This document shows positions 9,099-11,574 of a DNA stretch of 28,489 nucleotides, piece by piece. Each line of letters begins with the position of its first letter. The stretch's first letter is position 1. The stretch comes from a virus, in IMG/VR virus record IMGVR_UViG_3300006736_003987, positions 1 through 28,489 of that record; one strand, given 5' to 3'. The notes beneath the pieces are model-generated. The model was not told the origin of the DNA, made no database searches, and saw only the letters and a list, made by a program, of their open reading frames with translations. Made by a program: the position numbers and the translations under genes.

Positions 9099-9536
9099 AT
9101 GAGAAAACTGTACATAGAAAAAGATATCAATATTTCACCTGAGAAAGCATTTCTGGCAGGAGATTTTATAAATTTCTGTGCTGATAATCTGCCAATCAAG
9201 GGATCTTTTGATGTATATGTCGTTAGTGATAGAGATGCGCATGAAATATCTACAACAGCTTCTTACAACCGTGGAAATGGTGTAATAAAAGTTTTTGGAA
9301 GAAATAGAGCACTTGTAGATGTACTTCGATCAATTGCCCATGAATTAACTCATCTTAAGCAAGATGAAAATAATGAATTACAGGGAGTTATTCAAGATGC
9401 AGGCGGCCACATCGAAGATGAAGCAAATGCTCGCGCTGGAGAGCTTATTAAGTTGTATGCAAAAAGTAATCCATCTAGAAGAAGAATATATGAGAAGCTA
9501 ACAAGAAATATTTCTGCTAGCTCAAAAGTTCTCTAA
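9099..9536 (+). CDS. Small zinc metallopeptidase (HELTH)
   Basis: This 145-residue protein has the zinc-binding motif HELTH at residues 81-85 in SIAHELTHLKQDE. An acidic helix follows, GGHIEDEANARAGELI (102-117), in which Glu108 is the likely third ligand, as in gluzincin-type peptidases. There is no signal peptide, so it acts in the cytoplasm or the virion. No good ribosome binding site is visible; the ATG follows an A-rich tract. The last 20 bases overlap the end of the convergent lysin gene. It is one of three HExxH proteins in this window, and the only one that is neither exported nor fused to other domains. Confidence 0.85.
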   Translation: MRKLYIEKDINISPEKAFLAGDFINFCADNLPIKGSFDVYVVSDRDAHEISTTASYNRGNGVIKVFGRNRALVDVLRSIAHELTHLKQDENNELQGVIQDAGGHIEDEANARAGELIKLYAKSNPSRRRIYEKLTRNISASSKVL

Positions 9537-11574
9537 GGGATGATAATAATATTACTTCATGGCTTTGTCCTGACTTAAGGCCGGAATCCTTTTGTCCCAT
9601 GGCTGTTGCTAGTGGAATCTGCTGCTGTCCAAGATGAGCATATTTTCCAGTCCAGTTCTCCGGATTGTAGTATATTTTAGCATTTCCATGCTTAGTTCCA
9701 GTCAAATATCCTGGAGATGGATCTGCATATATAACCTTTGAAAATCCTCCCGACTTCATAGCATCTGCCAGTCCCTGGGCACCTCTTGACCACCCACCCA
9801 GCATACTTTCACTAACACTAATATTTTTATCTTTAATAAAATCTTCAAGCTTTGATTTCATGCTTGAAAAAGATTCAGTAAAGTTTCCAATAACAGCAAT
9901 AATTGGAGTTCTTGATCCAATTCCTTGAATCTTTCCTGCGACAAAATCTCTTCCCTTTGTACCAGCCGGAACACCGCCGTAATAATATAAAACCTTAGCA
10001 GGTTCACCCTCTTTTATATTCATTCCTATAATTTTAACATTTCCAGAATCTACCATCTCGCCCGATGAAGTGGCACCAGCCCCGCCCGCGTCATCAACAG
10101 AGCCCGATTCATCAGAGCTTGAGCTGCCTCCAGATGATGCACCCGCACCAGCACCAGTTGAGAGCGTCTCTGCTAGACGCTTTATTACCATCGATGTGAT
10201 ATCCTTATTATAGGCTCTCTCTTCCGCCGTGTCATTAAGGTTGCCCCCAGCTACACGATCACCTCCAAGATAAATGTCACAGTGATTCTTCCTGCCGATT
10301 TTATCCCATCCATTACCGCTTCCCTCTCTGGGCCTGCAAACTATATCCCCTCTTTCTGGAGTTACTTCATCAGGCTGAAATGCAACAAATCCTGATGTCT
10401 TTCCTGCATCTCTTGCAGCCTTCGCCGCCCCCATATATCTCATGTGCCCAGCAGCTTTTGGAAATGATGAATCATTTCTCATCGCGTACGATACAAATCC
10501 CCCGCTCCATGGTGCTCCAGGAAAATATTCACTATCAAGCCCTAGCCACTCTGCATAGCTTGCCAAAGTCGAAGCCATATTAGAATCTTTTTCATTTTTT
10601 CCTTGCCATTTTGCAACTTCAATCTCAGCATTCTCCGCAGCATCTCCACTAAGTGATACAACTTCTTCTTCTTCAAAGCTATCTTCTACCCTGCTAGAAA
10701 TAGATCCCGATCCCCTGCCGCTGCCAGCACTTGTAGTTAAGAGCTCTGTAATTCTTTTATCATTTTTAACAAGCAGGAGAATATCCTTTAATTCACTCTC
10801 TGTAACCCTGAGAATATTTCTTATTTCTGGATCATTTTCCAGAGACTTCATTCTTGCTGAGCCCCAGCTAGAACGAGATGATGTTCCAAGCTTACTCGTG
10901 TAAAAGCTATCACACTTATCCTTGATACTTGAAGAAACATTTCTCAGATAAAAATGAACCGGATCTCGCATCCCAAGCCACTGAAGGCCAGCCTGCTTTG
11001 ACAATTCAACAACAGGGCGCCAAGATGCTTCAGAGCTTTTCATATGCGCCCTAACCTTCCTACCATTACTATCTGTATACGTTGCATTAATATCTGCAGC
11101 GTAACCATACTGATGATCAGATCTACAAGGTTGAGCGACAGGATTTCCTGTTACCCTATTTGGCCCATGCTTTAAATTCCATTGATGACTTGGAAACCTA
11201 TGTGTGCTTACAAATCTTAAAGTTATACCAGCTGCATTTGCTAATTCTGCAAATTTTCTAAACTTTGGCTGAGCTTCACTGCTCATAGATTCAATTTTAT
11301 TTGATCCCTGGGTTCTTCCAGCCCTTGATGAATCGACCCCTGAAACTGATTCTCCAGTCTCTGAATCAGATCCAGAAGCAGATCTTCTACTACTTCCCCT
11401 GCCACCGGGTCCCTCTCCTCGCCTTCTTCCAACCTTGGTTGACAAAAGCTCAAAGATTATATCATCATCTAATATATTTCTAATTACATCGTCAAGTTCA
11501 ATATTCTCAACTATAACATCTTCGAGTAGAGCTTCACGAACCCATTTTCTAATTGTTGACTCTGATAATTTCAT
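9517..11574 (-). CDS. Three-domain lysin-like protein: M15 peptidase, DUF2272, alpha/beta hydrolase
   Basis: From ATG 11574 (GGAGGG 6 bases upstream) this is a 685-residue protein. Residues 1-20, MKLSESTIRKWVREALLEDV, are a variant of the leader shared in this window. Residues about 95-215 are an M15 D,D-peptidase: SDHQYGYAAD (152-161) fits SxHxxGxAxD, and DPVHFYL (204-210) supplies the last histidine. Residues about 315-465 match DUF2272, with PWSGGFVSYAMR (355-366), GDIVCRPR (409-416) and HCDIYLGG (431-438). Residues about 512-685 look like an alpha/beta hydrolase with Ser596 in GGWSRG, Asp618 in YADPSP and His672 in QSHEV. Ser/Gly-rich linkers join the domains. The protein probably cuts peptide cross-links and perhaps an ester or lipid in the envelope. 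The leader argues for virion packaging rather than free endolysin use. Confidence 0.88.
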   Translation of the reverse strand: MKLSESTIRKWVREALLEDVIVENIELDDVIRNILDDDIIFELLSTKVGRRRGEGPGGRGSSRRSASGSDSETGESVSGVDSSRAGRTQGSNKIESMSSEAQPKFRKFAELANAAGITLRFVSTHRFPSHQWNLKHGPNRVTGNPVAQPCRSDHQYGYAADINATYTDSNGRKVRAHMKSSEASWRPVVELSKQAGLQWLGMRDPVHFYLRNVSSSIKDKCDSFYTSKLGTSSRSSWGSARMKSLENDPEIRNILRVTESELKDILLLVKNDKRITELLTTSAGSGRGSGSISSRVEDSFEEEEVVSLSGDAAENAEIEVAKWQGKNEKDSNMASTLASYAEWLGLDSEYFPGAPWSGGFVSYAMRNDSSFPKAAGHMRYMGAAKAARDAGKTSGFVAFQPDEVTPERGDIVCRPREGSGNGWDKIGRKNHCDIYLGGDRVAGGNLNDTAEERAYNKDITSMVIKRLAETLSTGAGAGASSGGSSSSDESGSVDDAGGAGATSSGEMVDSGNVKIIGMNIKEGEPAKVLYYYGGVPAGTKGRDFVAGKIQGIGSRTPIIAVIGNFTESFSSMKSKLEDFIKDKNISVSESMLGGWSRGAQGLADAMKSGGFSKVIYADPSPGYLTGTKHGNAKIYYNPENWTGKYAHLGQQQIPLATAMGQKDSGLKSGQSHEVILLSSLRELLS

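Follow-up and report, generated by a model that had tools for sequence, protein, structure and literature searches.

A marine phage protein with two predicted wall-cutting domains, an esterase-like domain, and a leader similar to capsid-targeting propeptides

The locus described here raises the question of where, and at which stage of infection, a phage protein that combines several predicted envelope-active domains with an N-terminal leader would act. The window, a 28,489-base IMG/VR virus record, is a fragment of a large marine bacterial virus. The gene occupies positions 9517–11574 on the minus strand, with an ATG at 11574 and a stop codon at 9517–9519, and encodes 685 amino acids; a TTG two codons upstream of the ATG is also a possible start, and the plus-strand frame across the same interval is full of stops. 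A first-pass annotation had given the correct coordinates, omitting the strand, and its residue numbering matches the ATG start. It had described one protein with three separable envelope-active domains joined by low-complexity linkers, a prediction that our analysis supports: Pfam identifies M15 and DUF2272 domains, the third domain has homologs that keep its putative catalytic triad, and the linkers are Gly/Ser-rich, including a Gly/Ser/Ala stretch at res. 467–508 (10051–10176, minus strand). The single chain is predicted to combine two domains that cut the wall with one that resembles an esterase, all three directed at the envelope. On balance, we lean slightly towards reading the product as a virion-carried, exchangeable modular murein/envelope hydrolase of a large T4-like marine phage that acts at genome entry.

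The families of two of the domains, M15 and DUF2272, are already known. Pfam stretches of the M15 peptidase domain fall within res. 96–209 (10948–11289, minus strand). Searched as part of the full protein, the domain matches PF13539 (E = 8.7e-6) and PF02557 (E = 1.2e-5) with 26.7 and 25.5 bits, just over the curated cut-offs of 25, and searched alone it scores 30.2 and 29.7 bits, which bears out the M15 identity proposed earlier. Sequence comparison places the zinc ligands His, Asp, and His, together with the acid before the last His, in this domain, with H154, D161, D204, and H207 as putative zinc-binding or catalytic residues. The motifs SDHQYGYAAD and D-P-V-H-F are kept in a protein from a related locus (L209) and align with PDB entry 2VO9, an L-alanyl-D-glutamate peptidase that is, weakly (E = 0.017), the closest solved relative. 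The earlier label of 'D,D-peptidase' is too specific, because this nearest, if weak, relative and the D-x-x-H motif suit the L-alanyl-D-glutamate type. The M15C L-alanyl-D-glutamate peptidases share the SxHxxGxAxD and DxxHF motifs with the window domain, which differs from them in being fused to two more domains and a leader.

The DUF2272 domain (res. 323–466; 10177–10608, minus strand) is papain-like and confirmed by Pfam, where PF10030 matches with E = 4.3e-13 and 50 bits against a cut-off of 27; a search of this part against PDB sequences gave no match. Ser357, in a PWS motif, occupies the position of the papain-type Cys, and this residue is conserved together with H377 and H431 in all five aligned phage sequences. 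The exchange of Ser for Cys is a property of the DUF2272 family in a published classification that leaves activity open (PMC10318531), and the domain may be weakly active or inactive, judging from its residues. The window copy has the family's PWS..F, His, and H-x-D motifs and departs from other members of this Ser-variant papain-like family in being phage-borne, leader-bearing, and fused.

The third domain (res. 509–685; 9520–10050, minus strand) has no sequence match in Pfam, NCBIfam, PHROGs, or the PDB. α/β-hydrolase families are often too diverged for a test by sequence match, so this result lowers only the claim to membership in a named family. Searches of the full protein and of the third domain against phages, plasmids, and viral and genome contigs, with exact 8-residue seeds or tblastn, also returned no homolog. 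Homologs were located instead with a degenerate DNA pattern for GGWSxGAQG (L228/L231) and a relaxed version of it (L236); these patterns included the Ser motif and neither the Asp nor the His. L228 is 31% identical to the third domain over 149 residues, with a local alignment score of 131 against 32.5 ± 5.4 for shuffled sequences. A reverse phmmer search of 11,864 ORFs, started from a 1555-residue homolog, found only the window ORF besides the query itself (E = 1.6e-7). L228 and L236 share 162 identical residues of about 210, and therefore provide little more than one independent comparison. Several further motif matches (L225, L226, L227, L233, L234, L235, and L237) did not qualify as homologs of the third domain, even though L233 bears the similar motif GGYSSGAQGL. 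A weak match of the L228 homolog to Vibrio phage D69 (E = 0.4) was rejected: it lacks G-x-S-x-G, and hhalign gave it a probability of 26%.

The first-pass annotation had named Ser596, Asp618, and His672 as an apparent triad, and all three residues are exactly where it placed them. The putative nucleophile Ser596 (GGWSRGAQG) is encoded by TCA at 9787–9789, the putative acid Asp618 (YADP) by GAT at 9721–9723, and the putative base His672, where the C-terminal helix begins, by CAT at 9559–9561, all on the minus strand. The three residues and those surrounding them are invariant, in the order Ser-Asp-His and with a nucleophile-elbow motif, across three sequences, two of which are close to each other. 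A single-sequence AF2 prediction reached pLDDT 40 and was discarded, and a shallow two-sequence model (mean pLDDT 52, pTM 0.51) has α/β-hydrolase topology. In model numbering, a strand (res. 78–87) leads into Ser88 and a helix (res. 88–100), followed by a strand (res. 105–110) ending at Asp110, and by His164 at the start of the last, C-terminal helix. Its best structural matches in the PDB are nearly all α/β-hydrolase esterases, lipases, and peptidases; the top one reaches Z = 6.3, a value that common arrangements also attain and that would be no proof by itself, and the Foldseek E-value is 0.015. The best viral match, in BFVD, is an esterase (E = 2.4e-4). The proposal of an esterase-like domain is thus strengthened by homologs that keep the full triad and by the esterase and lipase matches, with the fold itself likely rather than proven; envelope lipids or O-acetyl groups, which that annotation had named, are possible substrates. 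We consider the third domain probably an α/β hydrolase, and likely a new α/β-hydrolase-like family, isolated in sequence and present both in a leader-bearing protein and in a tail-region protein.

The protein begins with a leader (res. 1–20, MKLSESTIRKWVREALLEDV; 11515–11574, minus strand) containing a candidate prohead-protease site, L16-L17-E18^D, that would place the cut of LLE^D at residue 18. The window and related marine phage contigs encode about 420 proteins with this type of start, collected from related contigs reached through PrkA (68–77% identity) and from a pattern scan of viral contigs. Their consensus is MKITxxQLRxIIxEE, frequently with a second [L/I]xE after it. Fourteen window ORFs fit a strict leader pattern, more than chance would give, since 50 shuffled versions of the window averaged 0. 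Ile12 is present in 72 of 78 leaders and Glu14 in 71, and a second [LI]xE occurs at res. 15–26 in 46 of the 78 (20.4 ± 3.5 after shuffling), with no enrichment further in; helix periodicity could account for part of this signal. Most leader-bearing cargo of the wider set has no assignment; AAA_33, zeta-like, HD, RNase_T, and 2H-phosphodiesterase-like domains are also present. The first set of cargo seemed rich in wall enzymes but the wider one did not, and we dropped this idea except for the syntenic locus described below.

Judged by its sequence, the leader resembles the T4 capsid-targeting propeptide. In T4, ten N-terminal residues of IPIII are enough to direct it to the head, and cleavage by gp21 follows [LI]xE (PMC9026906). 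Like the T4 capsid-targeting sequence (CTS) of IPI–IPIII and Alt, which gp21 processes, the leader is a short propeptide at the N-terminus that contains an [LI]xE site and is common to otherwise unrelated proteins, and phages related to the window's have both a gp21-like protease and gp23. It is unlike the CTS in its sequence, in its length of about 14–22 residues against 10 in IPIII, and in having many carriers per phage with wall enzymes among the cargo; its role in packaging is a prediction. Peptidase_S77 (the gp21-like prohead protease; E = 1e-27 to 1e-29) and Gp23 were found in three long related contigs, G008, G011, and G015. The gp23 homologs of related contigs contain L-R-E at res. 59–61. 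Next to gp21, two small proteins encoded between gp21- and gp22-like genes (L035, 6362–7129; L060, 2809–3604) start with leader-like helices that score 13.7–22.1, and they are candidate prohead core proteins. By analogy with T4, the leader probably sends the protein into the virus head. The earlier suggestion that the leader marks carriage in the particle gains from this resemblance, but the location is borrowed from related phages: the 28.5-kb window fragment contains no gp21, gp23, or tail genes. Our literature search found no virion proteomics for this phage group. If the leader is a head-targeting tag, sequence alone would mark the head cargo of a large group of uncultured phages, including candidate host-takeover proteins, and the injected set would become directly testable.

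The surroundings of the gene suggest how the protein may have arisen. A convergent gene for an M78-like peptidase (9099–9536, plus strand) anchors synteny across 16 related loci, among which L211 and L212 are the same stretch in two records, as are L213 and L214. Next to this anchor, at the place of the window gene, relatives encode different leader-bearing wall enzymes: an M15 domain with a GH19-like endolysin domain in L209 (homologous to window res. 5–293, E = 1.5e-50), M23 in L210 and L216, DUF2272 in L211/212, L217, and L220, and an endolysin-like protein in L219. Weak, M15-like, or unassigned domains occur at the locus in the second gene of L211 and in L213, L215, L218, and L222. A leader score of at least 0 is reached by 10 of 13 syntenic-locus proteins, compared with 13.8% of 516 long ORFs from related contigs, among which leader proteins are also counted. 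The upstream neighbor, a leader-bearing protein of 775 residues (11603–13930, minus strand) with hydrophobic segments at res. 290–324 and a peptidoglycan-binding-like motif, has homologs that occupy the equivalent position in related phages. A 211-residue protein (14819–15454, minus strand) has a leader-like N-terminus of a kind that recurs upstream of the locus in relatives.

In L211 the M15-like and DUF2272 genes are separate, while in the window protein and in L209 two modules are fused with a leader-like segment at the junction. In the window protein this segment (res. 256–275, RVTESELKDILLLVKNDKRI; 10750–10809, minus strand) lies in the linker between M15 and DUF2272. Its score at residue 256 is 3.3, which taken alone is marginal (1.3e-4 per position, with about 650 positions considered); we retained it because the homologous segment of L209 is strong, scoring 18.3 at residue 264, the level of a true leader. 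The sequence of the window protein resembles leader-bearing wall-enzyme modules joined together, and fusion of neighboring leader-bearing genes is the simplest history for it. Linker regions also contain [LI]xE, a short motif, at residues 277, 469, and 522, an excess that is statistically weak, and an apparent depletion of this motif in the domain cores was set aside as not significant (0 against 1.8 expected).

These observations can be joined into a mechanism whose packaging and leader-cleavage steps rest on resemblance to T4 and on related phages. The leader, as an amphipathic helix with an [L/I]xE site, would direct the protein into the prohead core, where a gp21-like prohead protease would remove it as it does T4 capsid-targeting sequences, and might also cut the linkers. 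The protein or its pieces would then enter with the DNA during genome entry; M15, and possibly also DUF2272, would open the peptidoglycan, and the α/β-hydrolase domain would open an ester-linked envelope component. The catalytic block would be a cassette that can be exchanged while its place in the genome stays fixed. Delivery and the opening of murein or of an ester-linked layer are proposed by analogy with T7 gp16, an internal virion protein with an exchangeable wall-cutting module (PMC8954989). The window protein is likened to gp16 and podophage ejection proteins by this proposed mode of action, and differs from them in its leader targeting and in that the related phages are T4-like, with a contractile tail. 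A cassette that exchanges M15, M23, DUF2272, GH19-like, and esterase-like modules would show adaptation of entry enzymes to different envelopes, and it raises the question of why a phage with a contractile tail would have wall enzymes in its head. In T4 the ejected cargo reaches the cytoplasm, but a wall enzyme has its site of action in the periplasm, and this difference counts against the head-cargo reading, our best explanation. A broader proposal, which we put forward only tentatively as a possibility, is that a widespread group of large T4-like marine phages tags dozens of head cargo proteins with a CTS-like leader, and that a fixed cassette swaps or fuses wall-enzyme families behind this tag. 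The fused versions, the window protein among them, would keep an internal leader remnant and be split by the prohead protease into separate wall and envelope enzymes, for delivery at infection by a contractile-tailed phage. In the literature searched we came across no description of such a CTS-like leader and exchangeable cassette, which is not proof of novelty.

The protein could instead be the endolysin that lyses the host when infection ends. It would then be a lysin of several domains whose third domain acts like LysB on an outer layer and whose leader is unrelated to packaging. PHROGs labels the M15 part, the L209 C-terminus, and L219 'endolysin', and mycobacteriophage LysA/LysB likewise pair a wall hydrolase with an α/β-hydrolase esterase (PMC7022511). 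LysB shares with the third domain its phage origin, G-x-S-x-G, Asp, and His; the window domain, in contrast, has no sequence match to LysB families, is fused in one chain, and is a prediction. Against lysis stands the leader, which is common to dozens of lysis-unrelated proteins (AAA_33/zeta-like, HD, RNase_T) and has counterparts on the small head-cluster proteins beside gp21, and a non-exhaustive look recognized no holin or spanin nearby. Ten partial related contigs gave no separate Amidase_2 or Phage_lysozyme (T4-type), a gap that this gene could fill as the lysis enzyme, and for that reason we rate the endolysin reading as unlikely rather than improbable.

Alternatively, the product might be a tail- or baseplate-associated wall enzyme whose leader docks to the tail instead of the head. 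In T4-like phages, the baseplate region is the place for hub and tail lysozyme functions. Third-domain homologs do occur in long ORFs of this region: in L231 (6516–11183, minus strand) the homolog is embedded in a 1555-residue ORF with no PHROG match that directly adjoins a gp53-like baseplate wedge gene (phrog_7145, E = 2e-12), and L236 has the same wedge gene. Other long ORFs of the L231 contig resemble, by reading, T4-like gp22, gp23, sheath, and tube proteins. However, the third domain of the window is not in a recognizable tail gene, and the leader heads so many small proteins without relation to each other that bulk head cargo suits it better than sites on the tail; we rate this alternative improbable. 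That the leader is a nucleic-acid feature for translation or regulation, on a protein with another cellular role, draws on some codon bias (AGA for Arg, GAA at position 14) but is highly improbable, since synonymous sites of Ile, Leu, and Glu15 vary nearly as elsewhere while the residues are fixed, and the helix pattern and [LI]xE are conserved at the amino-acid level.

Other genes of the window were also annotated. PrkA, SpoVR, and DUF444/YeaH genes are grouped at 3203–7625 (minus strand), a grouping that occurs in many bacteria, and PrkA relatives are also present in Thermus phages, in an Enterobacter phage record, and in uncultured phages of huge size. Adjoining PrkA is a 450-residue protein (1851–3203, minus strand) that is distantly GroEL-like (E = 2e-17, far under curated cut-offs). 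A 1166-residue protein (17507–21007, minus strand) combines a CCA-adding/poly(A) polymerase head with a Fic domain and further parts without assignment. A leader-bearing YkuD protein of L,D-transpeptidase type (26500–27300, minus strand) is another putative wall-active enzyme behind a leader, and a leader-bearing protein of 168 residues (25508–26014, minus strand) has a hydrophobic segment and a GWGTNEDAV motif that, by eye only, recalls annexin repeats. Finally, this virus record contains a tmRNA gene (261–629, minus strand) with the tag ANNNNHYEYALAA.
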